Origin: Rhizobium indicum
GTDB taxonomy: Bacteria > Pseudomonadota > Alphaproteobacteria > Rhizobiales > Rhizobiaceae
Direction of reading: 5' to 3'
DNA: 64,000 bases
Assembly (NCBI RefSeq): GCF_005862305.2
Contig: NZ_CP054021.1
Coordinates: 496,001-560,000, forward strand
The position numbers and the translations under genes are program-made. Numbering within the stretch: the stretch's first letter is position 1; every line of letters begins with the position of its first letter. The notes under the pieces are model-generated. The model saw only the letters and a program-made list of their open reading frames with translations. It was not told the origin of the DNA and did no database searches. Below are positions 39,997 to 56,091 of the stretch, one piece after another.

Positions 39997-40026
39997 CTTG
40001 CGGGATTCAAAACGCCTGACTATAAG
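39997..40026 (+). promoter_or_regulatory. Promoter of tRNA-Glu(TTC) copy 1
   Basis: CTTGCG and TATAAG are separated by 18 bases, 19 bases before the tRNA. The same arrangement with the same spacing precedes the copy at 56007, and the tRNA-Glu(CTC) gene has CTTGCA, 18 bases, TATTTT (40151-40180). Confidence 0.7.
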
Positions 40027-40129
40027 GGCGCCACCACGAAGGAAGCGCCCTTCGTCTATCGGTTAGGACACCAGATTTTCATTCTGGGAAGAGGGGTTCG
40101 ACTCCCCTAGGGCGTACCACTTTCTCTCC
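40016..40129 (+). repeat. 114-bp direct repeat, left copy (contains tRNA-Glu)
   Basis: It is identical base for base to 55978-56091. The repeat covers the -10 box, the leader, the whole tRNA-Glu(TTC) gene and 10 bases of its downstream flank. Flanks outside the 114 bases diverge. Confidence 0.95.
40045..40119 (+). tRNA. tRNA-Glu (TTC), copy 1
   Basis: The 75-base cloverleaf GCGCCCTTCGTC...AGGGCGT-A-CCA has anticodon TTC, and the 3' CCA is encoded. It is identical to the gene at 56007. Confidence 0.95.
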
Positions 40130-40193
40130 ATAAAGAAGCCATCACTTCCGCTTGCAGAAGCCGGCGCGCGCTCCTATTTTAACGAGGCTGCCT

Positions 40194-40268
40194 GCGCCCT
40201 TCGTCTATCGGTTAGGACGACAGATTCTCATTCTGTAAAGAGGGGTTCGACTCCCCTAGGGCGTACCA
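40194..40268 (+). tRNA. tRNA-Glu (CTC)
   Basis: The 75-base cloverleaf has the same acceptor and T-arm as the TTC genes, but an anticodon arm reading CAGATTCTCATTCTG, which gives anticodon CTC. It lies inside the segment bounded by the direct repeats. Confidence 0.95.
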
Positions 40269-40337
40269 CTGCTGGTCACAGAAGCCATTCTCGGCGTTCT
40301 ATTCGACCAGAACAGGGCTCGGCTGCTCCGATATGCA

Positions 40338-41489
40338 TCAGGGGAGCGACGGTCCATTCAGAGAAGCGCCGAGCTTGATGCCTCCCAATGTTTCGGGCAG
40401 ATCGACGACGTAGATCTTCCAAGGCCGTTTCACCATGTCCTGCTTGTTGCCGAACAGCCTCGTTCGGCGGGATTGCGTGACCGGAATATAGAGCTTGCGA
40501 TCGACACTGATGAACGATCCGTCCGGACTGATGAACTCGTCATCCGACGTCAGCACCGCAGTCTCTCCGGTCGGTGACAAGATCGTCACCCGCTTGTTGT
40601 CCAGTTCCGAGAGATAGAGGTTACCGTTCGTATCAAGGGCGCAGCCGCCGCTGCGTGCGATCGTCGCGTATTCCTCGACCTGTTCGGCGAGGTCGTCATC
40701 CGAAAGCGACGCGTCGCGCAACGCTGCGGTCTTGATCCTGATGAATGGGCCGGTCGGTGCTGCAGCATAAAGCCACTCCCCGTCGTCGCTGACCTCGATC
40801 ATGTCGATCTTCGGGGTCTGGTGACTCCCCTGCTGCATATTCGGTTCGACCTTTGCCTGCATCTCAGGAGAACCGGACATCCGGCGAAGCGTAACGCCGG
40901 TCTTGAGGTCATGATAGATCAAAGCGCCCAACCCGGAGTCCGTGACGTAGACATGGTCGCCGAACACGCGCAGATCGTTCAATTTCGCGCCCTTCGGCAG
41001 AATATCGTCGCCGAAGCGCAGAACCCGCAGCACCTCGCCGGAGTCCGCATCCAATTGAACAAGCTTTTGTGCGCCCTTGTGAGGCTCGGAAAGCGCAGGC
41101 GGATAGGAGTCTGCGCGCAGTGCTCCCTGGTCCACCGCCCAGACAGTCCCCTCCTTGAAGACATGGATCGAGTTGACATAGACGAAGCTATCAAATCCGT
41201 CGTCACCGGGCTTCCATTCGTTCCAGGCGTTTCCCGGAAAGGCGGCTGGCTTTCCGTCCGCACCCCGCTTTGCGAGACAGGGCGTCTGGTCGTAGTCCGG
41301 ATAGCGCGGCAGGCCGAAGAACATGTCTCCTTTGGCTGTCAGCGCCACCTGGTTGCAGAACCATGGAATTTCTGCCGCCACGGTGTGAATAAGCTCTGCC
41401 CCTGCCGCCGATACACCTCTTGCCGGCAGCAAGCCTGAAGCCGCAGTGCAGGCAGCAGCAGTCATAAATCTCCGACGTCCAATTTTCAT
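40338..41489 (-). CDS. Tat-exported yellow/major royal jelly-like protein
   Basis: The 383-residue product has a twin-arginine signal (GRRRFMTAAAC, 1-28) and a six-bladed propeller of the yellow/MRJP family, often annotated as L-dopachrome tautomerase-related. Supporting segments are LNDLRVFGDHVYVTDSGLGA and SGGCALDTNGNLYLSELDNK near the C-terminal blades. Its enzymatic role in bacteria is undefined. AGAGGAGG precedes the ATG. It is the last gene of operon 2, 235 bases after the esterase gene. Confidence 0.83.
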   Translation of the reverse strand: MKIGRRRFMTAAACTAASGLLPARGVSAAGAELIHTVAAEIPWFCNQVALTAKGDMFFGLPRYPDYDQTPCLAKRGADGKPAAFPGNAWNEWKPGDDGFDSFVYVNSIHVFKEGTVWAVDQGALRADSYPPALSEPHKGAQKLVQLDADSGEVLRVLRFGDDILPKGAKLNDLRVFGDHVYVTDSGLGALIYHDLKTGVTLRRMSGSPEMQAKVEPNMQQGSHQTPKIDMIEVSDDGEWLYAAAPTGPFIRIKTAALRDASLSDDDLAEQVEEYATIARSGGCALDTNGNLYLSELDNKRVTILSPTGETAVLTSDDEFISPDGSFISVDRKLYIPVTQSRRTRLFGNKQDMVKRPWKIYVVDLPETLGGIKLGASLNGPSLP

Positions 41490-41724
41490 GATATCCTCCT
41501 CTTGGTAAGGTCACACGACGGCAAGCAAACGACCGCCATCGAATCGGCGTGCAAACGCCCCGCGCTTTGCGTGCGCGTGGGAGGCCGCGACAGCTGAAAT
41601 GACGCCGTGGAAAGCCTGGGAACGACCCGCCAATTCTTAGGGCTGGAGCCGTTTTATTGGCAGGATCGATGGCCTCTATCAGCTCTGCGAGTTTTGTAGA
41701 TCGGCCTGCCGCTCGGCCGCGCGA

Positions 41725-43419
41725 TCAGGGTTTTTCAGCGATATCCCTCTCCGTCATGCCGATACCCTCTAGAATCTTTTTCCGCAGGTAGGCGTCACGG
41801 CTTGGGTAGAGCGTCGAGGTCCGCATGGCAGCTTCCCCCTCATGAAACCGAATGAACTGGCCGCCTGACTGAGGGGTCACCTGCCCCCAGTGCGGGACGC
41901 TGTTACCGTTCGGATCGCCAGTCTTGATGAAGTTTGCGAGATAGGTAATGGCCATGTCGCGCATGGCGAAATCCGGGTCGGTCCACGGAAGCTGGTCACG
42001 GTTTCCAGGGCGCAGCGAACCGTTGAAGTACCAGTTGTCTCCCGCGTGCCAAGCGCGACGAAAGCCCTGATCCTTGCCCGGCGGCCAGTGGTCCCAATAG
42101 TAGAGATAGACGTTGGCGCTGCTGTGGGCTTTGGCGAATTCCGCCCCGACGCGCACATACTCGAACATATAGTCGTTCAACATCCGCAGCGACAATCGAT
42201 AGGCTTCCACCGGGTCGTTGGTTTCGTAGAGCGGAAAGACGGCGTCGTCGACATTGCCCGCCTGGTGCGGTCGGATCGCCGCCAGCATCGCCTCATGCTG
42301 CTCGCCCTCCGTCATTTTCAGGTCGTTCGGCCGTAGTCCGGTATATTCGTCCGCCGTCTGACCGATGATGATATCCAGACCGTCGAAATCGCCCGGTTGA
42401 ACCAGGTTTACCGATTCCTTGGTGAACACGTAGTCGTCGATGGTATAGAACTGGTTCGTTGCGACGGCGCCGGTCATTGCACCATAGAGCGTTTCCTTTC
42501 CGCCCTGCCAATTCTCCAGCCAGGTCTTGCTGTCGATCGCCCGTTGGTCGGCAAGCGTCACCTCCTTGCCGAAGAGCTTGTTGACCACATCCTGGTTTTG
42601 CTCAGACTTCTTGGCGAAATCGACAACCTTCCCCGGCAGGAAGCCGGTGAAGCTCGATTGAATGAACGCGCGCTTGAAGAGACCTTTGGCAAGCGGCGTA
42701 CGGAGGAGCGCGACCGTGTTTTCGCCACCCGCCGACTGGCCGCCGATCGTCACGGTCTTCGGATCCCCTCCGAACGCCTCCGCGTTCTTTTGGATCCAGT
42801 GGAGGGCATCGACGAGATCGAGGACCCCGAAATTGCCTTTCGGGCCCTTGCCACTGTCCTTGCCCATCTCCGGCAGCGACAGCCAGCCCATCGCTCCAAG
42901 GCGATATTGAACAGAGACGACGACCACGCCCTGCGCGGCCAGCTGCGCCGCATAGAGGTCTTTCATCTCGCTTGAACCCAGGCGGTTGGCGCCGCCGTGG
43001 ATAAGCATATAGACGGGGAGCCGATCGCCGGTGCTGTGGGCCGGGGTCCAGACCGCAAGGTTCAAGCCGTTGTCGCTGATCGGCGCCCGGCCGAGACTGT
43101 TCGGGTTCTGGAGCATCTGGTCGCCCCACTTGTCAGCCGTGAGAACACCATCCCATGGCTTCACCGGCGGCGCTGGCTTCCAACGGTTTTCCCCACTAAC
43201 ATTTCCGGCGAATGGAATGCCGAGGAATTGGGTAACGCCGGGTGTGTCGCTCGGTACGCCCTCGACCCGGCCTCCCGTAACAGTCGCCAACGTGAGTGGC
43301 GCGGTTCCGTCGGTTGCGTTCGCATTGTTTGCCGCGCTCAGCAACAGGCTTGCCATCAGGACGACAGCACCCGTTCTACTCTTGCCGACGACAGCCTTGA
43401 ACTTTCCACTCATTCTCAT
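41725..43419 (-). CDS. Secreted type-B carboxylesterase
   Basis: The 564-residue product has a Sec signal (about 1-36, ending NNANA) and a carboxylesterase/cholinesterase fold. The nucleophile elbow is VTIGGQSAGGENTV (Ser in GQSAGG, with Gln in place of the usual Glu). A likely catalytic His lies in RRAWHAGDNWYF. Early segments FLGIPFAG and MLIHGGANRLGSS support the oxyanion hole. GGGAGG lies before the ATG at 43419. It probably releases an ester-linked product in the periplasm or outside. The substrate is unknown. Confidence 0.9.
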   Translation of the reverse strand: MRMSGKFKAVVGKSRTGAVVLMASLLLSAANNANATDGTAPLTLATVTGGRVEGVPSDTPGVTQFLGIPFAGNVSGENRWKPAPPVKPWDGVLTADKWGDQMLQNPNSLGRAPISDNGLNLAVWTPAHSTGDRLPVYMLIHGGANRLGSSEMKDLYAAQLAAQGVVVVSVQYRLGAMGWLSLPEMGKDSGKGPKGNFGVLDLVDALHWIQKNAEAFGGDPKTVTIGGQSAGGENTVALLRTPLAKGLFKRAFIQSSFTGFLPGKVVDFAKKSEQNQDVVNKLFGKEVTLADQRAIDSKTWLENWQGGKETLYGAMTGAVATNQFYTIDDYVFTKESVNLVQPGDFDGLDIIIGQTADEYTGLRPNDLKMTEGEQHEAMLAAIRPHQAGNVDDAVFPLYETNDPVEAYRLSLRMLNDYMFEYVRVGAEFAKAHSSANVYLYYWDHWPPGKDQGFRRAWHAGDNWYFNGSLRPGNRDQLPWTDPDFAMRDMAITYLANFIKTGDPNGNSVPHWGQVTPQSGGQFIRFHEGEAAMRTSTLYPSRDAYLRKKILEGIGMTERDIAEKP

Positions 43420-43471
43420 GCCTTCCTCCCAGGTTGCTTGCTCGATTGCCGCGTGGAACAGCAGGTGCCAA

Positions 43472-44203
43472 TCAGGGTGGCACGACGACATCGGCGTGTC
43501 CGCTCTGCACCAGAGACCGGCGAACGAAACCGCTCGCCTTCTGCTCCTGGACGAAAGCGCGCGTGAACGCGGCTGCGGCAGGGCGATCCGCACTGATGCC
43601 AACGGCCTGGGGAATGGCCATGAACGGTTCCTGCATCACTGCAAAGTCGGGCTGGTCGCGAGCAACGATCGACATGGCCTGCCGCACGCCCGCCAGACCA
43701 TCGAGATCCCCGCCCGTCAAAGCCGCCACCGCTTCCGGAAAACTGTCGAAACGGATCAGTTCGCCGGCTCCGCCCTGTCTTGAAAGAAAGAGTTCGTAGG
43801 CACTTCCCCTAACGGCGCCGATTTTCAGTCGCAGCCGGTCCACGTCCTTCAGGCCCAACGGCCCCGCAGCGCGGCGTATCAGAAATGCGCCTTCGATCTG
43901 GACATAGGGTTCGCTGTAGGCGATGCGCTCGGCTCGCTGCGGATCGATTGCGAGGAAACACACGTCCCACTCCCCGGCGCCAACACTTGCGGACACATCG
44001 CCGGCTTTGTCGTAATGTCGAAAGCGGATCGGGAGTGAGAGTTTCTCTGCAAGCGACCGTGCGAGGTCCACCGACACGCCCGCCGGCGTCTCGTCCGTCG
44101 GGCCGCGCCGAACCAGCACGACATTGCCGTGATTGAGGGCGCAGACCAGCGTTCCGGAAGGAGCGATCTCCCTGCGGATCGCCTCGAGGTCAAAATCGGT
44201 CAC
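43472..44203 (-). CDS. SBP_bac_3 domain protein without signal peptide
   Basis: The 243-residue protein has the fold of amino-acid-type solute-binding proteins: GTLVCALNHGNVVLVRRG, then VSVDLARSLAEKLSLPIRF, WDVCFLAIDPQRAERIAYSE and GAVRGSAYELFLSRQ. The N-terminus (MTDFDLEAIRREIAPSG) is not a signal peptide, so it would remain in the cytoplasm. Enzymes such as cyclohexadienyl dehydratase share this fold. A catalytic or ligand-buffering role is possible. It sits between the cupin and esterase genes. Confidence 0.78.
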   Translation of the reverse strand: MTDFDLEAIRREIAPSGTLVCALNHGNVVLVRRGPTDETPAGVSVDLARSLAEKLSLPIRFRHYDKAGDVSASVGAGEWDVCFLAIDPQRAERIAYSEPYVQIEGAFLIRRAAGPLGLKDVDRLRLKIGAVRGSAYELFLSRQGGAGELIRFDSFPEAVAALTGGDLDGLAGVRQAMSIVARDQPDFAVMQEPFMAIPQAVGISADRPAAAAFTRAFVQEQKASGFVRRSLVQSGHADVVVPP

Positions 44204-44239
44204 GGTTTTCTCCTCTTGCTGAACTCATACCTTCCGGGA

Positions 44240-44980
44240 CTAGATGGATTTCATCCACTCATCTTCGGTCGGGAACTGCGTGATCATCAGCTCCAGCCCA
44301 TCCTCGCCGGCCGTTATGGTCGGCGCAGGATCGTCGAACCGCACGAACATCAGCGAGAAGGGCTCATAGGTCCGGCCTTCATGGATGAGACTGCCGTTGA
44401 GGACGATCAGGTACTGGCCGCCGCTGCCTGTCGGATCGGGTGCCTGCATCGCCATGGTCGGTCCCAGCCGGAACACCTTGCAGTTCATGCCATCGTCACC
44501 CGGCTGCTCCTCGATGATGGTGTCGACGGTCAACTCGGTGCGATTGCGGAGAACCGGCTCGATCGACAGCGCCACCGCACCCGACGTGCGATGACGGCGT
44601 TTGGTGGGTTTAAGCTTTTCGCGAACAGTCGGCGTCGTCAGGTAGACGAGCCCTGCATCGGTCTTGCTGCGCAAAGTCAGGTATGACAGTCCCTGTTCAC
44701 TGGCGATCAGCGGGCCATAGCCGGTGTGATGGTCGGCGTAATGCACGGTAACGAGACGCACTTCGTCACGGCCGATCGTGCCGCTCCCGGCGATGAAGAC
44801 CTGGAACTGATCGACGATGTGGAAATGCGAGTCGAGCTTTTGATGAGCGTTCAAATCAAGCCGGAAGGCCTGTGGATCGGGCGCGGCAATATCCGAGTTC
44901 TTGCCGAACATGTTGATCTTCCAGGATTGGCCGCGGCGAAAGCGGGTCGGTTCTTTTTCGGTGTAGGACGCAGTTTGCAT
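44240..44980 (-). CDS. Cupin-like protein of unknown function
   Basis: The 246-residue cytoplasmic protein has a cupin-like first motif (HFH at residues 52-54, with Gln58 and a later Gly-rich turn). A second possible metal cluster is HYADHHTGYGP. The C-terminal half has GQYLIVLNGSLIHEG, typical of a second cupin barrel. A metal-dependent isomerase, dioxygenase or binding role is possible. No specific family was recognised. It is 52 bases after the flavin reductase gene. Confidence 0.6.
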   Translation of the reverse strand: MQTASYTEKEPTRFRRGQSWKINMFGKNSDIAAPDPQAFRLDLNAHQKLDSHFHIVDQFQVFIAGSGTIGRDEVRLVTVHYADHHTGYGPLIASEQGLSYLTLRSKTDAGLVYLTTPTVREKLKPTKRRHRTSGAVALSIEPVLRNRTELTVDTIIEEQPGDDGMNCKVFRLGPTMAMQAPDPTGSGGQYLIVLNGSLIHEGRTYEPFSLMFVRFDDPAPTITAGEDGLELMITQFPTEDEWMKSI

Positions 44981-45032: not shown

Positions 45033-46244
45033 TCAATGGTGATGGGGTGGCGAAAATTCGACATCGAGTGCTGCGGCAAGCGCGTCTCGGTCCATCCCGA
45101 TCATCTCGTGCAACTTGCCGAACTGCTGCGGGGCGTTGATCGTTTGGACGGCAACGAGACGATCGCGCTTGAAGCCCAGAACCGAAAATGCTCCGCTGGC
45201 CGGCGCATTCAGCACCGCTTCCATATCCGCGCCGTTCACCTCGCCCGACATCTGGATCTGGATGGCAGCCTGATGCGACCAATAGCGCGGCAGACGCTTG
45301 CGCGGCGGTGACGCCCCGGTGATCGCCGCAGCAACGATCTTCGCCTGATCCTGCCCGGGATTGACCGCTTCGTTTCGGACGTGGCGTGCGAGCACCGGAT
45401 CGTACCAAGTGGAGCAATCGCCAACGGCATAGACGGCCGGGTGCGATGAACGCCCGATCTCCGAAACGAGAATGCCGTTGTTCACCTCAAGGCCCGCGTC
45501 GCGCGCCAAGTTTTCATGGGGTGCCGCCCCGATCGCCACGACGACAATATCAGCCTCGATCTGCTCGCCATCGCCTAAGGTGACCAGATCCACATCCCGG
45601 CCACCGTCGCGGGCGATCGTCGTTACCGCGGCGCCGAAGCGAACATGAAGCCCCTGGTTCAGATAAAGGTCGAGCACGTAATTGGCGATCGACTTGCTGA
45701 CCGTCCGCTCCATGAGCCTGGAACCGGCCTCGATGACCGTGACGTCGAGCCCCTTTGCCAAAGTCATTGCGGCGATTTCCATGCCGATCAACCCGCCGCC
45801 GATGATCGCGACCGACTTGGCGCCGGCGAGGCGTGCCTTCAATCCGGTCAGATCTTCATGCGTGCGCAGGGTGTGGGCGACGCCGTCAGGATCGACAGAC
45901 GTGGGCAGACGACGGGGCTCGGCCCCGCAGGCGAGGATCAGGCGGCCGTATGAAAAGCGCCTTCCATCCTCGGAGAGCGCATAACTTTCCGCTACATTCA
46001 GCGCGACGATCTTCACAGCCTGAACGAGGTCGATCCGGTTCGAGGCGTAGAAGGTCTCCGGGCGGAGCGGCATCAGAGCATAGTCGTCCTTCGACAGCGC
46101 TTCTTTCGAGAGCGGCGGACGATGGTAAGGAAGGACGTTCTCCTGCGTCACCAGCATGATGGAGCCGTCATATTTGGCGCTGCGCAATGCGGCCGCAACA
46201 GCGACCCCGGAATGGGACGCACCAATGATCAAGATATCAGACAT
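45033..46244 (-). CDS. Rubredoxin/ferredoxin reductase-type FAD oxidoreductase
   Basis: The 403-residue flavoprotein has an FAD Rossmann motif (LIIGASHSGVAVAAALRS) and a second NAD(P)H motif (SVAIIGGGLIGMEIAAMTLA). VYAVGDCSTW binds the FAD ribityl. This layout matches reductases that feed electrons to oxygenases (AlkT, benzene dioxygenase reductase). Its start lies 25 bases after the rubredoxin stop. The open frame extends back to 46490 through the rubredoxin gene, but it is not a fusion. Confidence 0.9.
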   Translation of the reverse strand: MSDILIIGASHSGVAVAAALRSAKYDGSIMLVTQENVLPYHRPPLSKEALSKDDYALMPLRPETFYASNRIDLVQAVKIVALNVAESYALSEDGRRFSYGRLILACGAEPRRLPTSVDPDGVAHTLRTHEDLTGLKARLAGAKSVAIIGGGLIGMEIAAMTLAKGLDVTVIEAGSRLMERTVSKSIANYVLDLYLNQGLHVRFGAAVTTIARDGGRDVDLVTLGDGEQIEADIVVVAIGAAPHENLARDAGLEVNNGILVSEIGRSSHPAVYAVGDCSTWYDPVLARHVRNEAVNPGQDQAKIVAAAITGASPPRKRLPRYWSHQAAIQIQMSGEVNGADMEAVLNAPASGAFSVLGFKRDRLVAVQTINAPQQFGKLHEMIGMDRDALAAALDVEFSPPHHH

Positions 46245-46269: not shown

Positions 46270-46473
46270 TCATCCGACGACCACCATGTCGAACTCGCTT
46301 TTTCGAGCGCCGCACTCCGGGCAAACCCAATCGTCGGGCACATCTTCCCAGCGGGTGCCCGGCGGGACGCCGCCATCGGCATCTCCAAGCGCCTCGTCGT
46401 AGACATACGCGCACAGGACGCACTGCCACACCTTGAAGCCGCTCCGGGCGGCGACCTCCGCGGACGGAACCAT
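46270..46473 (-). CDS. Rubredoxin
   Basis: This 67-residue one-iron electron carrier has ligands Cys18, Cys21 ([13 protein letters not shown]), Cys51 and Cys54 ([11 protein letters not shown]). [19 protein letters not shown] is the classic core of the AlkG-type rubredoxin. GGGAGG lies seven bases before the ATG at 46473. It is the first gene of operon 2 and is divergent from lysR. The partner reductase follows, but no hydroxylase is encoded nearby. Confidence 0.94.
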
Positions 46474-46557
46474 TGTTTTTCCTCCCACAAACTCGAATTT
46501 GAGCGAGGCTACCTCAAGGATCTTGGTATCTCCAGATGTTCTGCCATACTATCAGTC

Positions 46558-46591: not shown

Positions 46592-47503
46592 ATGGACATC
46601 CGCCAACTCGCTTATTTCGTCCGCGTGGCGGAACTCGGAAGCTTCAGCCGCGCATCGGCTTTCCTGCACATCGCCCAGCCCGCACTGAGCCGACAGGTCC
46701 GAAACCTGGAGGCGGAGTTGAAGGAACGGCTCCTGCTTCGCAATGGACGAGGCGTCGAGCTCACCGAGGCCGGCGAACGTCTGCTCGACAATGCGCGTGG
46801 CATTCTTCGGCAAATCGAGCGCACCTACGAGGACATCGAGAATTCTCGAACAGGGAAATCCGGGAAGGTCGGAATAGGTTTACCTGCTACGATCTCGACT
46901 GCAATCGCGACCGCGCTCATACGCAAGCTGAGAGAGGAATTGTCGGATGCTCAGGTGATGCTCGTCCACGGACGATCAAACCAGCTTCAGGAATGGATCC
47001 TGTCCGGCCGCCTCGACATGGCGATCATGTACGACGCTCCATCGTCCCCGATGTTGGAAATCCACGACCTTGTCGAGGAGAACCTCTATCTCATTGGCCG
47101 CGAAGGCGCGTTCAAAGATGACAAGCCGGTACATCTGGAATCAATTGCCGACGTGCCAATGGTCATCGCCTGCAGGCCCAACAGCACGAGGGTCCTGCTC
47201 GATTCCGAACTCGCACGGCTCGGCCAGAAGCTCAATATCGTCTTTGAATTGGACCCTCTCGATACGATGTTCGATCTTGTGAGGGACGGCTACGGCTTCA
47301 CGGTGGCGTCGATCCGCACGCTGGCATCCAAGGGTCCGGACGCGCGGCATGGATTGGAACTGCGCAAAATCGTCGGACCCGAATTGATCCTCTCCGTCCA
47401 ACTGGTGCAGCCCGCTCGCCGATTGTCGAACAGGCTGCACGAAGCGGCTTTTCGTATATTGCGCGACCTCAGCATGGATCTCCTGGGAGGCAAGCCGACC
47501 TGA
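46592..47503 (+). CDS. LysR family transcriptional regulator
   Basis: The 303-residue regulator has the N-terminal winged HTH (LAYFVRVAELGSFSRASAFL then HIAQPALSRQVRNLE) and a periplasmic-binding-like effector domain (about 90-295). It is the only plus-strand gene in the accessory block. It is divergent from operon 2 and convergent with operon 1. It probably binds the two matching palindromes (46558 and 55821). The inducer is unknown. Confidence 0.92.
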   Translation: MDIRQLAYFVRVAELGSFSRASAFLHIAQPALSRQVRNLEAELKERLLLRNGRGVELTEAGERLLDNARGILRQIERTYEDIENSRTGKSGKVGIGLPATISTAIATALIRKLREELSDAQVMLVHGRSNQLQEWILSGRLDMAIMYDAPSSPMLEIHDLVEENLYLIGREGAFKDDKPVHLESIADVPMVIACRPNSTRVLLDSELARLGQKLNIVFELDPLDTMFDLVRDGYGFTVASIRTLASKGPDARHGLELRKIVGPELILSVQLVQPARRLSNRLHEAAFRILRDLSMDLLGGKPT

Positions 47504-47572: not shown

Positions 47573-48556
47573 TCAGCATCCGGTATCCAGGCCCATATTG
47601 ACGACACGCTCAGGGCGCCCATCCAAAAATGCTTCGATGAGGCGGACGGCGTCTCCGTAGTAGGTACCCAACATGTCCCTGGTGAAATATCCAAGGTGCG
47701 GGGTGATCACGACGTTCGACAGGCTGCGGAATGGATGGTCGACCGGCAGCGGCTCTTTTTCGTAGACGTCCAGCCCCGCTCCCGCAATCGATCTTGAGCG
47801 CAACGCGGCAATAAGCGCGGGCTCGTCAACGATGGCGCCGCGGGCGGTATTGATGATGTAGGCGGTCTTTTTCATCGCCTGCAGATCGGTCGCGCCGACG
47901 ATGCCTCGCGTTCGGTCGCTCAACGCCAGATGGATCGTGACGACGTCGCTGGTGGCAAAGAGCTCTTGCTTCGATACCAGACGCGCACCGGCTGCCTCCG
48001 CCTGCTCCGCCGTCATGTTCTGGCTCCAGGCCTGGAGCTCCATGCCGAATACCTTGCCGATCTCCGCGACCCTTCTGCCGAGGCTGCCGAGGCCAAGAAT
48101 GCCGAGCACCTTGCCTCCTACCGTCGTTCCCGCCTGGGTCTGCCAGCCTCCGCGGCGCATGCTGCGATCTTCCGAAGCGATATGTCTCGTTGCCGACAAG
48201 ATCAGACCCCAGACGAGTTCGGCAACGCCGCCGGCGCCAGCCCCGCTGACGGGAGTGTTCGAGACGAGGACGCCGCGGCTCGCGGCTGTCGCGATGTCCA
48301 CCGTATCGTAGCGCTTGCCGGTCACGACGATGTACTTCAGGCGCGGCAGCCGATTGATCAACTCCCCTGGAATCGGCATCCTCTCACGGAGAGTGCAGAT
48401 TATGTCGAATCCAGCGAGTTCGCGCGCGGCCTCATCCGGCAGCGCCAGCGGACGGTCGAAGACGACGACATTGGCGCGGGATTTCAAACCTCCCCAATCG
48501 GCGACCTCCTGAGAAATACCCAGATAATCGTCAAGAATGGCGATGTTCGGTTTCAT
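47573..48556 (-). CDS. D-2-hydroxyacid dehydrogenase
   Basis: The 327-residue NAD(P)-dependent enzyme reduces or oxidises 2-oxo/2-hydroxy acids. The nucleotide motif is GILGLGSLGRRVAEIGK. The catalytic Arg is in NTARGAIVDEPAL, the Glu is in DVYEKEPLPVDHP, and the His is in VITPHLGYFT. The ATG at 48556 is preferred over 48571. It is the last gene of operon 1, 50 bases after the binding-protein gene, which suggests it acts on the imported compound. Confidence 0.9.
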   Translation of the reverse strand: MKPNIAILDDYLGISQEVADWGGLKSRANVVVFDRPLALPDEAARELAGFDIICTLRERMPIPGELINRLPRLKYIVVTGKRYDTVDIATAASRGVLVSNTPVSGAGAGGVAELVWGLILSATRHIASEDRSMRRGGWQTQAGTTVGGKVLGILGLGSLGRRVAEIGKVFGMELQAWSQNMTAEQAEAAGARLVSKQELFATSDVVTIHLALSDRTRGIVGATDLQAMKKTAYIINTARGAIVDEPALIAALRSRSIAGAGLDVYEKEPLPVDHPFRSLSNVVITPHLGYFTRDMLGTYYGDAVRLIEAFLDGRPERVVNMGLDTGC

Positions 48557-48606
48557 AGATATCCCACGCAAATGATCTTCGGATAGTCTGGCTTAAACGG
48601 CCCTGC

Positions 48607-50295
48607 TCATTGCCGCTGCCATTCCTCCGACCAGATCTGCAACGGGTCGAGCGTTCCCTGCCGGAAGTTCGTAAGGCCGGTGACGGTGACGTAGGCGCGC
48701 GGGTAGAAATAGAGCGGCAACATCGGCAGATCGTCGGCAAAGATTTTCTGGACCGCCGCCCATTTCTGCTTTGCCGTCTCAGGATCGAGCGCCGCCTCGA
48801 GCTCGGATATGGCCTTGTCCATCTCCGGATTTGCATAGGCTGAGAAATTGTTGCCGACGCCATTGTTTTTTGGACCCGGAATGGCGTCGGATCCGAGCGC
48901 GATCCGCGGCGAAACGGATGGAGAAAAGTCGATCGAGGACATCATCAGAGCTTTGAACTTCCGCTTGCGCGCCATCTCGCCATTGAATTCCTGCAGGGGC
49001 ACGAAGTTGTTGGTGATCTCGATGCAGACATCCTTCAACTGGCTCTGGATGACCTGAGCAATCTGCTCTCTGGTCTGATTGCCCGCAGTGGAGACAAGCT
49101 CGAGCGAAAGACGCTCGCCTTTGTCATTGACACAGATGCCGTCACTGCCCGGTTTCCAACCAGCGCTTTCGAGCAGCTCTTTAGACTTCTCAGCGTCATA
49201 TGAGTAGAGCGTCATATCCTTGTTGTAATAGGCATTCTCGCTGCTCAGGATGCCGTTGGCGACGGGCTGCAGCCCTCCGAACAGTTCGTCGCTTATCGCC
49301 TGGCGGTCGATTGCGTAGAGGATGGCCTGGCGCACCGCCTTATCCTTGAGGATCGGATTGTCGAAATTGACAGCGATGCGCTCGACGTTCGTTCCGTAGG
49401 CAAGATGGTAGGTGAACTTGTCAGGCTGCTGGTTCTTGAGATCGAGCATCTGCGAGAAGCTGATTCCGCCGGGGCTGACAGGGACCGCATCGACCGATCC
49501 AGCGAGCAGATTCTGAAGCAACGAAGACGAATTGTCGCGATAGCTCAGGATTATCCGCTGCAGATGGGGCTTATCTCCCGGCCACTTCGGATTGGGCGTG
49601 AACACGATGCGTGTTCCGATCTGATAGTCGCTGAGCAGGAACGAGCCGTTCCACAGGCCGGGATTGGTCGGCTGCAGATTGTAGAGCGATTGCTTGACAT
49701 AGGTGTCGAGCGTTGGATTGGCCGCATAGACCGGACCTTCCAGGTGCTCCGGAATGACCTGGTCCCAGGAATTATAGCTCGAAATGATCTGCGGGATCGT
49801 CAGCACGACGGTTCGCTCGTCGACGATCTCCAGCGCAGATGCCCGCGTCCAGGAATTGTAGTTGGAGAAGCCGATCTTGGGATCGCGCGCCATTTTCCAG
49901 GTGAACTCGATATCCTTCGAGGTAACCGGCACGCCGTCTCCCCAGGCAAGCCCCTCCCTGAGCTTGAACGTGACCTTCATTCCCTTCTTGCCATCGGGAA
50001 GATCGACGATCTTGGCAAGACCGTTGTCGATGGTCGGCAGCGTTTCGCAAAGGATACAGTGATTGACGACGTTCTCGTCGAATGCCGTTATCGGTCGGAG
50101 GGAATAGTTGATGACGAGGCGCTTGGTATTGTTGACTTGAACCAGCGGATGAAAATTCGTCAGGAACTGCAACTGTCCGACGACCAGTTGATCCTTTGCC
50201 TGAGCCATAGCGCTGGCACTCGACAGCGAGGTCAGCGCAGCCGTGGCGAGTGCCACGGTGACGAACGATTTTAGTCTCTTCCCGGCAGATGTCAT
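48607..50295 (-). CDS. Peptide-type ABC transporter substrate-binding protein
   Basis: The 562-residue periplasmic SBP_bac_5 protein has a Sec signal (about 1-31, ending SASAMA) and a mature part with KDIEFTWKMARDPKIGFSNY, VRQAILYAIDRQAISDELFG and YLDVC-like segments typical of the dipeptide/oligopeptide/nickel class. GGAGG lies just before the ATG at 50295. It is encoded between the dehydrogenase and the permease genes. The ligand cannot be read from sequence. Confidence 0.92.
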   Translation of the reverse strand: MTSAGKRLKSFVTVALATAALTSLSSASAMAQAKDQLVVGQLQFLTNFHPLVQVNNTKRLVINYSLRPITAFDENVVNHCILCETLPTIDNGLAKIVDLPDGKKGMKVTFKLREGLAWGDGVPVTSKDIEFTWKMARDPKIGFSNYNSWTRASALEIVDERTVVLTIPQIISSYNSWDQVIPEHLEGPVYAANPTLDTYVKQSLYNLQPTNPGLWNGSFLLSDYQIGTRIVFTPNPKWPGDKPHLQRIILSYRDNSSSLLQNLLAGSVDAVPVSPGGISFSQMLDLKNQQPDKFTYHLAYGTNVERIAVNFDNPILKDKAVRQAILYAIDRQAISDELFGGLQPVANGILSSENAYYNKDMTLYSYDAEKSKELLESAGWKPGSDGICVNDKGERLSLELVSTAGNQTREQIAQVIQSQLKDVCIEITNNFVPLQEFNGEMARKRKFKALMMSSIDFSPSVSPRIALGSDAIPGPKNNGVGNNFSAYANPEMDKAISELEAALDPETAKQKWAAVQKIFADDLPMLPLYFYPRAYVTVTGLTNFRQGTLDPLQIWSEEWQRQ

Positions 50296-50328
50296 TTTAT
50301 CCTCCATCAGACTTTGTTTTTGTTTTCT

Positions 50329-51279
50329 TCAGTGCGATCCCTTGCTCGTCTCCGAGCGAGGATCGAAGGCCGAGCGAACGCCATCGCCGACGAAATTGAC
50401 CGCCATTACGGTGGTGAAGATCAGCAGGCCGGGATAGACGGCAAGCATCGGGGCCGAGATGATGAGCTGCTGCGCATTGGTCAGCATGTTCCCCCATGTC
50501 GGCGTTGGCGGAACGATGCCAAAGCCAAGGAAGCTCAGCGTCGATTCGAACAGGATGATGCGGCCGACCGACAAGGTCATCGCGACGATCAGAGGTGTGG
50601 CGATGTTCGGCAAAATGTGGACGAAAATGTTATATCGACCCTTGGCTCCGCTGACACTTGCTGCCCTGATGTAATCGACATCGCGTAACGTGATGGTGCC
50701 GGCCCTGGCTATTCTGGCGATCGTCGTCCAGTCGACGAGAGCGATGATGATGACGATCCTCAAGAAGACGGCGGCAGGCGACGTCGCCGCAGCCTGGCTG
50801 AGGCCGAGTTTCGTCAGATCGACGGCGCCCAGGACGATCAGCACCGGGATGAGCGGCAGAGCGATGATGCAATCCGTCATCCGCATGAGCACGTTGTCGA
50901 ACCTGCCGCCGATGTAGCCCGCAGTGACGCCGATCCCGATGCCGATGATCCCGGTAATGAAGGTGGCGAGCAGACCGACGGCAATGGATACCTGGCCGCC
51001 ATAGAGGAGCCGCAGCAGTACGTCGCGGCCAAGGTCGTCGGTGCCGAGCCAGTGCTGCGCTGACGGCGGCTTGAACCGGCGCAGGAGATTGGTGGCGTTG
51101 GCGTCTATTCCCGTCAAATAGGCGATGGGCCCGGCCATGGCGCAGGAAAGCATGAGAAGGACCACGAAAACCAGCGAGATCATCGCGAGCTTGTTGTCCC
51201 GGAAGCGCTGCCAGCGCTTGCTCCAGACCGAATTCGAGCTGGCGCCCGCTGGCGCCGTATCTGCGGTGACGATGCTCAT
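50329..51279 (-). CDS. Peptide-type ABC transporter permease (DppC-like)
   Basis: The 316-residue inner-membrane permease has an N-terminal helix (about 32-52), a periplasmic segment with NLLRRFKPPSAQHWLGTDDL and GRDVLLRLLYG, which is diagnostic of DppC/OppC, and the EAA loop RAASVSGAKGRYNIFVHILP. Its start overlaps the DppB-like stop by four bases. It pairs with the next gene to form the channel. Confidence 0.93.
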   Translation of the reverse strand: MSIVTADTAPAGASSNSVWSKRWQRFRDNKLAMISLVFVVLLMLSCAMAGPIAYLTGIDANATNLLRRFKPPSAQHWLGTDDLGRDVLLRLLYGGQVSIAVGLLATFITGIIGIGIGVTAGYIGGRFDNVLMRMTDCIIALPLIPVLIVLGAVDLTKLGLSQAAATSPAAVFLRIVIIIALVDWTTIARIARAGTITLRDVDYIRAASVSGAKGRYNIFVHILPNIATPLIVAMTLSVGRIILFESTLSFLGFGIVPPTPTWGNMLTNAQQLIISAPMLAVYPGLLIFTTVMAVNFVGDGVRSAFDPRSETSKGSH

Positions 51280-52229
51280 TTCAGGGTAATCCTCGGGTCA
51301 AGCCACGCATAGGCGAGGTCGGCAAGAAGGCTTGAAAACAGGGTGACGATGGTCGCCAGCAGAAGGCCGACGAGCGCCAGATTGAAGTCGATGTTGCTGA
51401 TCGCGTCGTAGATGACTTTGCCCATACCCAGCATGCCGAAGATCGTCTCCACGACGAGCGCCCCTGAGAATAGCGAGCCGAAGCCGAGGGCAAGCACCGT
51501 CACCATCGGGATCAGAGCGTTGCGGAGCGCGTGACGCATGACGACAGCCGTTTCCGAAAGACCCTTGGCCCGCGCTGTCCGGACAAAGTCCGAATTGAGC
51601 GTCTCGATCATCGATGCTCTCACATATCGCACCAGCGGGCCGACATGGAAGAATGTCAGGACGACCACCGGCAGGATCATATGGACGATCTGTTCGCCGA
51701 CCGGAGCGTCGCTCATCAAGGGCGTGCCGCTCGCCGGAAGCCAGCCGAGCTTGACTGAGAATACGATGATCAGAATGAGCGAGGTCCAGAACCCGGGCAA
51801 CGAAATGCTGGCGAAGGCGATAAGACTGATGACGTTGTCCGTCCATCCGCCCGGCTTGCGGGCAGCCAGCGCACCGAGAAGCATCGCAAGCGGGATACTG
51901 ATGATTTCGGTCGCGACGAGAAGCTTCGCGGTCTGAATCACGGCTGGCCAGAGGACGTCCAGGACCGGCTTGAAATAGACGCTGGAATAGCCGAGATCGC
52001 CATGAAGCGCCTGGTAAAGCCAGTGACCATAGCGGGCAAAAAGCGGCTGATCCATTCCGTAGAGCGCCCGCATCTGCGCCATCGTCTCCGGCGTCAGCGA
52101 TGGATTACCCTCCAGCATGGTCTCGACAGGGTCGCCAGGCATGAGCCCGATCAGGACGAACAGCAGAAGCGACATCACAAGAGTGACGAGGACTGCCTGG
52201 AGGAGACGTGAAATCGTATATCTCAACAT
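51276..52229 (-). CDS. Peptide-type ABC transporter permease (DppB-like)
   Basis: The 317-residue permease begins MLRYTISRLLQAVLVTLVMS and has LMPGDPVETMLEGNPSLTPE, typical of DppB/OppB. The EAA loop is FVRTARAKGLSETAVVMRHA, followed by LRNALIPMVTVLAL. It lies four bases after the DppF-like stop and overlaps the DppC-like start by four bases. Confidence 0.93.
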   Translation of the reverse strand: MLRYTISRLLQAVLVTLVMSLLLFVLIGLMPGDPVETMLEGNPSLTPETMAQMRALYGMDQPLFARYGHWLYQALHGDLGYSSVYFKPVLDVLWPAVIQTAKLLVATEIISIPLAMLLGALAARKPGGWTDNVISLIAFASISLPGFWTSLILIIVFSVKLGWLPASGTPLMSDAPVGEQIVHMILPVVVLTFFHVGPLVRYVRASMIETLNSDFVRTARAKGLSETAVVMRHALRNALIPMVTVLALGFGSLFSGALVVETIFGMLGMGKVIYDAISNIDFNLALVGLLLATIVTLFSSLLADLAYAWLDPRITLK

Positions 52230-52233
52230 CGGC

Positions 52234-53178
52234 TCAATCCTTGAAATGACAGGCGGAAAGTTGCGTGGGCCGGCCAGGTGCGGGCAGAAGCGCAGGTCTT
52301 TGGCTCTTGCAGATGTCCTGCGCCTTTGGACAACGGGTATGAAACACGCAGCCGGAGGGTGGGGCCAAGGGCGAAGGGATCTCGCCCCGAAGGATCTGTT
52401 CTTTCTTTCGTCGTCCCCGGCCGATGCGTGGAACGGCCGCCAGCAGGGCTTGGGTATAGGGGTGGCTGGGTGTCTGGAAGAGATCCTCCGAGGCCGCCAC
52501 CTCCATCAACCGCCCGAGATAGAGAACGGCGACACGGTCCGCGAGGTGCCGCACGACGCCGAGATCGTGGCTGATGAACAGATAGCTGATGCCATGCTGC
52601 TTCTTGATGTCATCGAGCAGGTTGAGCACCTGGCTCTGGATCGAGACATCAAGGGCGGAAAGCGGCTCGTCGGCGACGATCATTTCCGGTTCGGCGATCA
52701 GGGCACGCGCAATCGCAATCCTTTGGCGCTGGCCGCCGGAGAACTGATGAGGATAGCGACGCGCCGCTTCCGGCGGCAGGCCGACCTGTCCTAAGACGTC
52801 GACTGCCCTGGCTTGCCGCTTGTCGGCCGGGACGCCCTTCAGCCTCAGCGGCTCTGCAACGATCTCTCCGACCACCATCCGCGGATCGAGCGCGGAAAAC
52901 GGGTCCTGGAAGATGACTTGCACCGGTGTGTGTCCTTCGCCGCCCGGCCTGGCGCTGTTGAACGTCACGGTCCCGGCGGTCTGCTTGCGCAATCCGGCCA
53001 CGACATATCCAAGCGTCGACTTGCCGCTGCCGCTTTCGCCGACAAGCGCGAGTGTTTCACCCTTCAAGACGCTCAGCGATACGTCATTGACCGCTTGCAG
53101 CCAGACCGCTGGTTTTAGAAAACCGCCACCGATTGGAATATCGACGTTGATATGCTCGAGATTCAGGAGTTCGGTCAT
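52234..53178 (-). CDS. Peptide-type ABC transporter ATPase (DppF-like)
   Basis: The 314-residue ATPase has Walker A LVGESGSGKSTLGYVVAGL, signature FSGGQRQRIAIARAL, Walker B MIVADEPLSALDVS and the C-terminal oligopeptide domain with cysteines in GCVFHTRCPKAQDIC. These cysteines correspond to the metal or Fe-S site of this subfamily. It overlaps the DppD-like stop by four bases. Confidence 0.93.
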   Translation of the reverse strand: MTELLNLEHINVDIPIGGGFLKPAVWLQAVNDVSLSVLKGETLALVGESGSGKSTLGYVVAGLRKQTAGTVTFNSARPGGEGHTPVQVIFQDPFSALDPRMVVGEIVAEPLRLKGVPADKRQARAVDVLGQVGLPPEAARRYPHQFSGGQRQRIAIARALIAEPEMIVADEPLSALDVSIQSQVLNLLDDIKKQHGISYLFISHDLGVVRHLADRVAVLYLGRLMEVAASEDLFQTPSHPYTQALLAAVPRIGRGRRKKEQILRGEIPSPLAPPSGCVFHTRCPKAQDICKSQRPALLPAPGRPTQLSACHFKD

Positions 53179-54188
53179 GGCTTAACCTTGCGGCAGGCGA
53201 CCTTATGGCCGGGAGCGACTTCGAGAAGATCAGGCTCGATCTGTCGGCAGCCGTCGTCTGCAAAGGGACAGCGCCTGGCAAAACGGCAACCCGTCGTTAT
53301 ATCGGACGTGACGCGCCCAGGAATGACGTAGAGACGCTCTACCCGCTTGTCGGGATCCGGAAGCGTCTGAATCAGTCCCTGGGTGTAGGGATGAAGCGGA
53401 TTGGCGAAGAGCTCGTCGGCGGGCGCATATTCAACGGCCGTGCCGGCATACATCACCATGATGGAGTCGGCGATCTCCGATATGACAGCGAGATTGTGGC
53501 TGATGAACTGGATCGACATCTGGGCGTCGTCCTGCAGCGTCAACATAAGATCGAGTATCTGCGCCTGGATCGTGACGTCGAGCGCGGTCGTCGGCTCGTC
53601 GGCGATCAGCAACTGCGGACGACAGGCCAGCGCCATCGCGATCATCGCACGCTGGCGCATGCCGCCAGAGAGCTGATGCGGATAGTCCTCCGCGCGCCGA
53701 GCCGGCGACGGGATTCCGACCTGCGCAAGCAGATCGACCGCGCGGCCATGCGCTGCGACCTTGCGGAGCTTCTCATGCTTGACGAGAACCTCGGCGATCT
53801 GCCGTCCGACCGGCATCACCGGGTTCATGGCAGTCATCGGCTCCTGAAAGATCATCGCGATCTCGCGGCCGCGGACCTGCTGCCATTGGCGCTGCGTAAA
53901 CTTTGCCAGATCCCGGCCATTGAAATCGATGGTGCCGTCGACCCTGCCGCCGCCGGCAACAAGCCCGAGAAGAGCAAGCGACGTCATCGTCTTACCGCAG
54001 CCACTTTCGCCGACGATTCCCAAGGTTTTGCCGCGCGCGATGCTGTAGCTCAGACCTCGCACCATCTGGACAGCGCCTTGCGGACCTGGAAAGGAGACGT
54101 TCAGATCCTGGACGTCCAGCAAGGGCGTGGAGCTTTCGGCGGTCGACGCAGCTCCGTCACCAACGACAGCGCCGTTGACATGCAGCAT
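53175..54188 (-). CDS. Peptide-type ABC transporter ATPase (DppD-like)
   Basis: The 337-residue ATPase has Walker A GIVGESGCGKTMTSLALLG, signature LSGGMRQRAMIAMAL, Walker B LLIADEPTTALDVT and the C-terminal GCRFARRCPFADDGC segment. The first 25 residues (to about STPLLDV) are a non-conserved extension. It is followed by the DppF-like gene with a 4-base overlap, and lies 99 bases after capA. Confidence 0.93.
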   Translation of the reverse strand: MLHVNGAVVGDGAASTAESSTPLLDVQDLNVSFPGPQGAVQMVRGLSYSIARGKTLGIVGESGCGKTMTSLALLGLVAGGGRVDGTIDFNGRDLAKFTQRQWQQVRGREIAMIFQEPMTAMNPVMPVGRQIAEVLVKHEKLRKVAAHGRAVDLLAQVGIPSPARRAEDYPHQLSGGMRQRAMIAMALACRPQLLIADEPTTALDVTIQAQILDLMLTLQDDAQMSIQFISHNLAVISEIADSIMVMYAGTAVEYAPADELFANPLHPYTQGLIQTLPDPDKRVERLYVIPGRVTSDITTGCRFARRCPFADDGCRQIEPDLLEVAPGHKVACRKVKP

Positions 54189-54287
54189 TCGTCACCTCCC
54201 TTTCGAATGTCTGGCCGCTAACAGGCACAGTTCTTCTATTCGCATGTGTTGCCTACCGCGGCCTCCACCGCAGCAGGCGTATTCTCG

Positions 54288-55649
54288 TTACAGCTCGATA
54301 ACGCCGACGCCACTTCTGATTTCGATCTTCGTTCCGAACGGTTCAGACAAGCGACGATAGCGATCGATGATGCGCACGGCATCCTCTCCCTTGGCAACCA
54401 TCGGCCGCCCTTCGGTATTGTGATGGTCGCCCTTGCCGGTGCGCCGGGTCTGTTTGACATCAGGCGAGGTGTCGCGCCCCATTTCGACCGGATGGAGCAG
54501 AATGCGTTTCAGCCTCTCCCCCTCCATATCGAGCTTGATGACGGCGGAACTCCACCAGGTGTCGGTGGGCGTATCAAGGCCGGGATGAAGTGGATGGGCG
54601 GCGGGCGTCAGCATTGCGAGACGGTCGACGTCATGTCCCCAGGCATCGTAGCTGTCATAAGGGACGCGCTGGATGAACTCCGATTGAGCAAAGAAGTTAC
54701 CGATGCCGTAGAATATCGGTCTGCCATTGTAGATCTCGATGCCCAATGTCCGATGCCAGCCGTGGCCGATGTAGATATCGGCGCCGCCGTCGATGACGGC
54801 GTGAGCGAACTCCTTGACGAAGCCAGGCGGCGTATCGCCCCGCGGACCATCCGAGACGCTGAAATGATGCGCCACGATCACCAGGTCTGCCATGGAGCGC
54901 GCCTCGTGGACGGAACGAAGGTTGCGTTCGAGGTCGCGTTTGTGGCATCGGCTGATGACTTCGCAGCGGTCGCCCACGAAGAAGGATTCGGGATCGCCCC
55001 ATTGCTGGGCGCCGGGAATTTGAACGCCGAAAGACCCCTCGCGGCCATGCTTCGGCTTCTTCATGAAATTGAACTTCTCGCCAAAGTCCTTGAGATTCCT
55101 GGCGGTCTCTTCGTCCACCATGAATTCAAAGGTGAGGCGTTGGGGATTGACGCCAGGGCGGCCGCGTAGCGCGCCCTTCGGCATGCCCGCCCACATGAAA
55201 TGTTGATTGCCGGAACTTGTCGAGACGAGTGCGACACGTCCGTTTTTCTTGTCGACGTAGCCCGGCTCGCTGGCGAGCTCGAGATCCGCGCCGGTGCCGG
55301 CTGTGACGATGCCCGCGGCCTTCATGTGCTTCTTGGTCGCGATCAGGCCTTCGGCTCCGAAATCGAAACTGTGATTGTGCGCGGTGGACATGATATCAAA
55401 GCCGGCCCACTTGAGATCCTTGGCAATCTCGGGATCCGCCATCATGAAACTTCCGATGCCTTGGCCGCGGGCCGGCCACTTGAGCTCGTCGTAGTCGGCG
55501 AAATTCATTTCCAAATGACCGTAAGTGACATCGGCGTCCTTAAGGACGTCCCAAACCTCGGTAAATTGAGGCTCGTCGTGCATGGCAAATGGGCGACACA
55601 CCATGCACTCGCCCGCCAACGCCACTTTCCAGTTCCGTGTCGACACCAT
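54288..55649 (-). CDS. CapA family (PGA_cap metallophosphatase-fold) protein
   Basis: The 453-residue protein has the CapA/PgsA calcineurin-like layout: VALAGECMVCRPF near the start, GHLEMNFAD, STAHNHSFDFGAEGLIATKK, VIVAHHFSVSDGP, IYIGHGWHRTLGIEIYNGRP and FYGIGNFF. No signal peptide or membrane anchor is visible, unlike capsule CapA, so a cytoplasmic hydrolase role is more likely. CAGGAGG lies just before the ATG at 55649. It is the first gene of operon 1. Confidence 0.87.
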   Translation of the reverse strand: MVSTRNWKVALAGECMVCRPFAMHDEPQFTEVWDVLKDADVTYGHLEMNFADYDELKWPARGQGIGSFMMADPEIAKDLKWAGFDIMSTAHNHSFDFGAEGLIATKKHMKAAGIVTAGTGADLELASEPGYVDKKNGRVALVSTSSGNQHFMWAGMPKGALRGRPGVNPQRLTFEFMVDEETARNLKDFGEKFNFMKKPKHGREGSFGVQIPGAQQWGDPESFFVGDRCEVISRCHKRDLERNLRSVHEARSMADLVIVAHHFSVSDGPRGDTPPGFVKEFAHAVIDGGADIYIGHGWHRTLGIEIYNGRPIFYGIGNFFAQSEFIQRVPYDSYDAWGHDVDRLAMLTPAAHPLHPGLDTPTDTWWSSAVIKLDMEGERLKRILLHPVEMGRDTSPDVKQTRRTGKGDHHNTEGRPMVAKGEDAVRIIDRYRRLSEPFGTKIEIRSGVGVIEL

Positions 55650-55977
55650 AAAACCTCCTGAGCCGACGAGACGCCGGCACAGAGAGCCTGCGTTCGTCCG
55701 ACTGCCGTTCTCATATTCGTGAGCTTGAAAATCTCCCAAAGCGACATTTCTCACTCCCGTCGCATATCGAACATAGCACTCCGGGCAGCTATCACTAGTT
55801 TCGTCGATTGCCTTTCAGAAATGCCGTTTCGGCATATCTCTCGGTGCATCGATACACGTCGTTGACCAGCCTGTGCTGCGCGTCGGCAGTAAGCGGTACC
55901 GTGATTTTCCACAGCCGAAATAAATCGGCGAAAACGATGATTTTTTCGCGCCTTGGCGCTTGCGGCCTTCGAAGGCG
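55650..55977. other. Upstream region of operon 1
   Basis: About 330 bases lie between capA and the tRNA-Glu repeat. The region holds the LysR-type palindrome at 55821 and, near its right end, the -35 of the tRNA promoter. The open frame to 55754 has no good start and is taken as leader. Confidence 0.6.
55821..55835. promoter_or_regulatory. Candidate LysR operator upstream of capA operon
   Basis: ATGCCG-TTT-CGGCAT is a perfect 15-base palindrome of LysR T-N11-A type, 172 bases upstream of the capA ATG. The half-site and following bases (TTTCGGCATATCTC) are repeated exactly next to lysR at 46564-46577. Confidence 0.65.
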
Positions 55978-55988
55978 CTGACTATAAG
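55959..55988 (+). promoter_or_regulatory. Promoter of tRNA-Glu(TTC) copy 2
   Basis: CTTGCG, 18 bases, then TATAAG, at the same distance from the tRNA as in copy 1. The -35 lies outside the identical repeat, so it was conserved separately. Confidence 0.68.
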
Positions 55989-56091
55989 GGCGCCACCACG
56001 AAGGAAGCGCCCTTCGTCTATCGGTTAGGACACCAGATTTTCATTCTGGGAAGAGGGGTTCGACTCCCCTAGGGCGTACCACTTTCTCTCC
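55978..56091 (+). repeat. 114-bp direct repeat, right copy (contains tRNA-Glu)
   Basis: It is identical to 40016-40129. It marks the right border of the accessory block. Confidence 0.95.
56007..56081 (+). tRNA. tRNA-Glu (TTC), copy 2
   Basis: The 75-base gene is identical to that at 40045, with anticodon TTC and encoded CCA. Confidence 0.95.

Follow-up and report, generated by a model that had tools for sequence, protein, structure and literature searches.

Gene sets that differ between genomes, many of them without an integrase, have been described at one and the same place between core genes, and such hotspots are proposed, in the part of that study considered here, to turn over through homologous recombination in the core genes on either side (Oliveira et al. 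2017, PMC5635113). The symbiosis islands of Bradyrhizobium brasilense are also bordered by tRNA-Glu, according to the portion of PMC11837538 used here. The locus analysed here lies in a window of 64,000 nucleotides from Rhizobium indicum (contig NZ_CP054021.1, positions 496,001 to 560,000), where two identical tRNA-Glu(TTC) genes frame a segment of 16 kb. We consider it likely that this segment holds an accessory island without an integrase, which lies in a hotspot spacer as an old insertion and was subsequently kept, partly replaced, exchanged and lost by homologous recombination in its flanks, with the TTC genes taking no part.

Results

The locus and its gene content

The window contains an exact direct repeat of 114 bp (40016-40129 and 55978-56091, offset 15962), and similarity drops off sharply on either side of it. 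That the two copies are identical and that each carries a complete tRNA-Glu(TTC) gene, as the initial annotation had stated, is borne out by sequence comparison and by ARAGORN, which places tRNA-Glu(TTC) at 40045-40119 and 56007-56081 and tRNA-Glu(CTC) at 40194-40268, all on the plus strand; the Rfam tRNA matches coincide with these positions. When the 7.5-Mb assembly was queried with the 296-bp left cluster, matches appeared at these two places only. Fourteen genes are predicted between the repeats, 13 of them assigned to a Pfam family, and no integrase, transposase or recombinase is found among these 13, the remaining gene (246 aa) having no family. To that extent the annotated lack of an integrase holds, as does the housekeeping character of the surroundings (glyoxalase and M15 peptidase to the left, recJ to the right). 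The features of the locus are as follows.

40016..40129, plus strand: left 114-bp repeat (part of the promoter, tRNA-Glu(TTC) copy 1 at 40045-40119, 10 bp downstream); also in block-less relatives
40194..40268, plus strand: tRNA-Glu(CTC); left insertion point just past its 3' end; in the relative G130 this tRNA serves as integrase site
40269..40311, no strand: left junction zone; conserved in all three carriers; aligns weakly with the ancestral spacer
40338..41489, minus strand: MRJP / L-dopachrome-tautomerase-related protein (Pfam PF03022)
41725..43377, minus strand: carboxylesterase (PF00135); ORF readable to 43602, start inferred; 78% to the plasmid copy
43472..44203, minus strand: family 3 solute-binding-like protein (PF00497)
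44240..44980, minus strand: 246-aa protein, no family; 80-98% identical in seven other cassettes
45033..46244, minus strand: FAD-dependent (rubredoxin/ferredoxin) reductase (PF07992, PF14759)
46270..46488, minus strand: rubredoxin (PF00301); below the 100-aa limit of the first ORF list
46592..47503, plus strand: LysR-type regulator (PF00126, PF03466)
47573..48571, minus strand: D-2-hydroxyacid dehydrogenase (PF02826)
48607..50307, minus strand: family 5 (peptide/nickel type) solute-binding protein (PF00496)
50329..52229 (50329-51279, 51276-52229), minus strand: two ABC permeases (PF00528)
52234..54188 (52234-53178, 53175-54188), minus strand: two ABC ATPases (PF00005, PF08352)
54288..55652, minus strand: CapA/MslH-like protein (PF09587); ORF readable to 55754
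55903..55977, no strand: right junction, with the ancestral DNA that forms the upstream portion of the TTC copy 2 promoter; homology of close block-less relatives begins near 55899-55905
55978..56091, plus strand: right 114-bp repeat with tRNA-Glu(TTC) copy 2 (56007-56081); ancestral

The MRJP-related protein is probably secreted, judging its signal by eye, and has no match in PADLOC; its gene is split over two frames in the carrier G075 and was not found in the carrier G034 at the cut-off used. For the 246-aa protein, neither Pfam and NCBIfam nor the PDB sequences gave a match. The CapA/MslH-like protein matches PDB 8gq9 (E 1.8e-53) and, scanned as the longer ORF (54288-55754), scores 220.3 against the curated NCBIfam cut-off of 700 for MslH peptide epimerase. 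Read by eye against the residue numbering in the part of PMC10406935 considered here, it keeps Glu44, Asn87, His88, Asp91, His295 and probably His259, with Asp11 replaced by Glu and His261 lost. A lasso-peptide pathway was rejected after this score and residue reading; we infer a catabolic role for the cassette.

Counterparts of all 14 block genes lie in one run, at 68-89% protein identity, on pAtH25_79a of Agrobacterium tumefaciens H25/79, a plasmid typed as conjugative by MOB-suite, and one cassette is common to chromosomes and a conjugative plasmid. The plasmid run differs from the block of the window in possessing an MFS gene and in the reversed order of the MRJP and esterase genes. An MFS gene follows the D-2-hydroxyacid dehydrogenase in five of the eight other cassettes and is absent from the window block. 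Circular permutation of the cassette, considered for the position of MRJP in G128, was rejected because the strand of this gene is inverted as well.

Ends of the block and other inserts at the site

The block extends from about 40269/40312 to 55903, in place of some of the short spacer that separates tRNA-Glu(CTC) from the second TTC gene. Both insertion points lie inside the repeats, one past tRNA-Glu(CTC) and the other about 75 bp ahead of the right repeat. The TTC-CTC spacer, tRNA-Glu(CTC) and these 75 bp are ancestral DNA common to block-less relatives, and the roughly 40 bp following tRNA-Glu(CTC) are perhaps ancestral too; among the matches listed, the alignment of G034 stops at 40311. 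The initial annotation had regarded everything between the repeats except tRNA-Glu(CTC) as accessory, which is correct for the block, for which empty sites exist, but not for the TTC-CTC spacer or the stretch before the right repeat. None of the junction sequences reveals the route by which the block entered.

Unrelated inserts occupy the same site in relatives. G130 bears a 20-kb island that has a tyrosine integrase and, on either side, a 45-bp repeat of the CTC tRNA, and G060 a 23-kb insert in which a serine-recombinase-type ORF adjoins CTC; the insert of G138 holds GDP-sugar/glycan genes, that of G097 kinase genes and that of G005 an integrase. The BREX island found at the cluster in G056 splits tRNA-Glu(CTC) and brings its own copy, an arrangement that we rate as more striking than the block itself.

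Across the genus, the spacer between CTC and the second TTC gene is a hotspot at which insertions recur. Searches of the open-licence PMC literature turned up no account of it; a chromosomal Rhizobium hotspot in which defence, polysaccharide and catabolic islands gather can now be named.

One end of the block lies at a tRNA 3' end, although the exact base is unsure within 40269-40311. Two marks of an integrase-made tRNA island are missing from the block: an integrase gene at one end and, at the other, the 3' end of the target tRNA as a direct repeat. No fourth copy of this 3' end was found, either in the window (at most 3 mismatches) or in the three carriers (at most 6 mismatches). The left junction at the CTC 3' end, together with the use of this same tRNA by the integrase island of G130 and its disruption by the BREX island, would suit a classical island which integrated there and from which the integrase and the tRNA-end copy on the right have since disappeared; given the missing integrase and 3'-end copy and the same ends in all carriers, we regard such an origin as unlikely, if a serious candidate. 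Because the carriers share their ends, any such loss predates their split or the spread of the block. The initial reading of a block not made by an integrase holds for the sequence as it now stands and has to be limited to it, without extending to the origin, because a classical integrase island occupies the same site in G130.

Distribution and divergence of the carriers

Carriers as a single clade are rejected with rpoBC (p-AU 0.0007) and with M15+recJ (p-AU 0.001), the latter tree having been computed by a quick method, with one long, probably misaligned row (L014) and without the four block-less loci L054, L055, L057 and L058. The two trees place the window differently, and that of rpoBC is star-like with 7 of its 13 inner branches open. 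Between the window and G075, its nearest carrier, dS is 0.11-0.25 in the block and 0.14-0.15 in the flanks: the divergence of the block equals that of its surroundings. Compared with G034, dS amounts to 0.18-0.24 in the left half, 0.81-1.28 from LysR to mslH and 0.17-0.21 in the flanks. The block is mosaic, and from LysR to mslH the window and G034 carry distantly related versions of it. In nine close relatives that lack the block, the spacers can be aligned with one another and retain no remnant of the block, which is an old, patchily held allele.

The equal divergence of block and flanks from G075 and the deep, star-like rpoBC tree, with which a single early gain and many losses would also agree, are what vertical inheritance from the ancestor of the species complex, followed by loss in most lineages, would produce. 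This history would require many losses, each restoring an ancestral-looking spacer of the kind seen in the nine relatives, and the deeply different half in G034 also speaks against it; we consider it distinctly improbable.

The tRNA-Glu cluster in block-less relatives

The search for the tRNA cluster covered 92 genomes and gave a match in 89, with the first TTC gene and CTC joined in 49 and split in the other 40, of which G005, G025 and G074 were looked at further. A second match on the same strand was present in 45 of the 49 joined clusters, 41 at 117-651 bp and three at 7.8, 10.7 and 23.2 kb; that of G072, 210 kb away, does not belong to the same cluster, and the spacer table excludes the overlapping second matches of G085 and G144, which hence have no spacer there, as well as six weak matches. 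Where non-carrier loci have three tRNA-Glu genes in order, the arrangement is TTC-CTC-TTC in 47 of 48 and TTC-CTC-CTC in the last. Block-less relatives thus keep TTC, CTC and TTC, so that the repeats predate the block, and identical tRNA copies that occur without it did not create it. The empty site with a single TTC gene beside recJ, proposed in the initial annotation as a check, was not found among these loci; single TTC genes on separate contigs do occur in members of the genus that are less closely related.

Two further candidates were discarded. The second TTC gene is ancestral and cannot be an island-borne attR, and duplication of a resident segment finds no counterpart: the tRNA query matches this locus only, and three tested block proteins have one G000 match each under strict cut-offs.

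The two TTC genes are identical to each other in 50 of 51 loci despite three sequence types between genomes. Being alike within and unlike between genomes, the copies exchange sequence, which points to concerted evolution, with gene conversion as its presumable cause. Notwithstanding this exchange, recombination between the identical genes, by which the 16-kb segment was initially supposed to have been gained, lost or duplicated, is highly improbable and as an origin already contradicted, since block-less relatives hold both copies and CTC, the insertion points lie within the repeats, and no deletion product with one TTC and no CTC occurs in the 48 non-carrier loci. The TTC genes are bystanders to the block, and the empty sites settle a case that looks like repeat-repeat recombination.

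Discussion

How could the block have arrived and persisted? The most probable course is that a mobile catabolic/transport cassette reached the hotspot in the distant past, possibly as an integrase island whose integrase and right end have since disappeared, or by capture through homologous recombination. As an allele it would then have been retained, partly replaced, exchanged and lost via homologous recombination in the flanks (M15, the tRNAs and recJ), a route that we infer, while gene conversion would keep the two TTC genes identical.

A broader and more speculative idea, to which we give little credence at present, is that the tRNA-Glu cluster serves as a dual-use docking site: integrase islands would enter at CTC, and the tRNA-Glu genes on both sides, gene-converted and nearly invariant, would act as portable homology arms, so that any cargo lying between them, with or without an integrase, could be swapped between diverged Rhizobium by homologous recombination.

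The locus shares features with both kinds of known system. As in the hotspots of PMC5635113, in so far as the part considered here describes them, different gene sets lie at one place between core genes and the block of the window lacks an integrase; unlike those hotspots, the site is a tRNA cluster also used by integrase islands. Like classical tRNA-associated islands, the block begins right past a tRNA 3' end, and the G130 island sits on the same tRNA; unlike them, it has neither an integrase nor a repeat of the tRNA 3' end on its far side.

The repeated tRNA-Glu genes

The two 114-bp repeats of the window are exact and lie where the initial annotation had placed them, each containing a tRNA-Glu(TTC) gene (TTC1 and TTC2), with tRNA-Glu(CTC) 74 bp past the left repeat. 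To the window we added 60 fetched stretches and compared the order of tRNA-Glu genes in these 61 sequences. Three such genes stand in order in 51, including 48 from genomes devoid of the accessory block, and the remaining ten comprise contig ends, rearranged loci, inserts and stretches with the cassette only. TTC1 equals TTC2 within 50 of the 51 three-tRNA loci, yet between genomes there are three tRNA-Glu(TTC) sequence types, with both copies of a locus varying together. The identity of the copies is therefore a matter of concerted evolution, and recent duplication is not required.

The order in the block-less genomes is TTC-CTC-TTC in 47 cases and TTC-CTC-CTC in one (L017, from G070). In that stretch the third gene (1966-2040, oriented) carries the anticodon CTC, apparently through conversion, leaving one TTC gene at the locus.

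Empty sites and boundaries of the block

What could have produced a block framed by identical repeats? The recombination between tRNA copies proposed earlier does not hold up: the second TTC gene is already present in 47 of the 48 non-carriers. Their CTC-TTC2 spacer measures 156-310 bp in 37, 311-1000 bp in eight and >1 kb in three, against 15738 bp in the window. Since non-carriers keep three tRNAs, mostly with a short spacer, TTC2 is old, and part of the spacer upstream of it has given way to the block. The first ~43 bp past CTC are common to carriers and weakly alignable to the ancestral spacer; on the right, homology to nine close non-carriers restarts at about 55903.

Among the best matches listed for window 38600-58200 (blastn against 148 genomes of the genus), the whole block occurs in G075 (96%) and most of it in G034 (85-91%), while the dehydrogenase-to-mslH part occurs at another location in G128 (80%) and partly in G110 (73%). 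A protein search found the mslH-like gene in the window and these four genomes only (5/148).

Other inserts at the cluster

The tRNA-Glu cluster is a hotspot for insertions. Scanned with a tRNA query, the other 92 genomes showed a short spacer in 41 cases and a long one in three (G097, G138, G060); in G025, G074 and G005, 14.5-15.7 kb separate a TTC from a CTC gene.

Inserts at the tRNA-Glu cluster
G097, 7.8 kb: SCO1, histidine kinase
G138, 10.7 kb: GDP-mannose dehydratase, family 11 glycosyltransferase
G060, 23.2 kb: type III methyltransferase, IetA-like protein, resolvase-type ORF (reading frame overlaps the CTC tRNA)
G025, between TTC and CTC: Wzz-like polysaccharide protein
G074, between TTC and CTC: look-alike ORFs (by eye)
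G005, between TTC and CTC: tyrosine integrase, PifA-like protein, 16-19-bp tRNA-end copies
G056 (L022+L021 reversed), 1590-36069, ~34 kb: BREX island with brxA, brxB, brxC, pglX, pglZ

The insert of G130 is a textbook island, with a 45-bp direct repeat of the CTC tRNA 3' half in copies 19.9 kb apart; it encodes a tyrosine integrase together with a type I restriction protein. The BREX island interrupts the host gene for tRNA-Glu(CTC) within its T arm, and on the far side lies a 21-bp copy of the tRNA end (35694); the island seems to replace the gene it breaks by a diverged tRNA-Glu(CTC) of its own (31790-31864, opposite strand). Four adjoining ORFs of this island (672, 745, 186 and 467 aa; L022 10243-16451) have no Pfam match. 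Distant genomes are often arranged differently, and because the cluster is split in 40 of the 89 genomes with a hit, the hotspot statement is firm for the wider group of the window and looser for the genus.

Two further observations concern tRNA neighbourhoods. In G037 (L011 2994-3070, oriented) a tRNA-Met-like gene lies ~1.3 kb past CTC, within a 1.6-kb spacer, and its 3' end matches that of tRNA-Glu at 24 of 25 bases. Ends corresponding to window 34680-35680, beside tRNA-Arg(TCT), are about 100 kb apart in G001, which suggests a large insert there; a full match to the window ORF 34633-35601 is missing in several close relatives.

Related cassettes and their possible role

Related cassettes occur in Pararhizobium polonicum, Xaviernesmea oryzae, Rhizobium sp. 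CF080 and, in another family, Microvirga zambiensis; none of these four has a tRNA gene closer than about 10 kb. Among the eight other cassettes compared (seven loci and a plasmid), rubredoxin is present in all, the reductase in seven (not Xaviernesmea) and an MFS gene in five (not G075, Xaviernesmea or CF080). The 246-aa protein at window 44240-44980, which lacks a family match, recurs at 80-98% identity in seven further cassettes, which come from two bacterial families. The 629-kb plasmid pAtH25_79a has the cassette set plus MRJP and esterase genes, with genes for 4-oxalomesaconate tautomerase and an aldolase nearby. An MRJP-like protein is found in three of the 148 genomes, all with the cassette. 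These neighbours suggest uptake and breakdown of a modified peptide or aromatic compound; no oxygenase is recognisable alongside the rubredoxin and reductase.

History and proposed turnover of the block

Carriers as a single clade were rejected both on rpoBC (p-AU 0.0007) and on the flanking M15 peptidase and recJ genes (p-AU 0.001), where the L014 row has a very long branch, probably a misalignment from an insert before recJ. Synonymous divergence between window and G075 is similar in block and flanks. Between window and G034 it is flank-like for the esterase, SBP3, 246-aa protein and reductase genes and reaches 0.81-1.28 from LysR to mslH; G034 also has an MFS gene and lacks the MRJP gene. 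In the right-half tree G034 still joins the window and G075, but by a deep split. The block is thus not recent, and half of it was swapped for a distant copy in one lineage or the other. With dN well below dS, it is under purifying selection. The MRJP-like gene of the carrier G075 (L020) is split across two reading frames.

The 14 genes tile 40338-55652 with ordinary GC content, and no recombinase is found among the 13 that have a Pfam family. The chief rival explanation would make the block a decayed integrase island. The best reading is that an old island without an integrase sits in the tRNA-Glu hotspot and is probably turned over by ordinary homologous recombination, a route that Oliveira et al. 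(PMC5635113) proposed for many hotspots.
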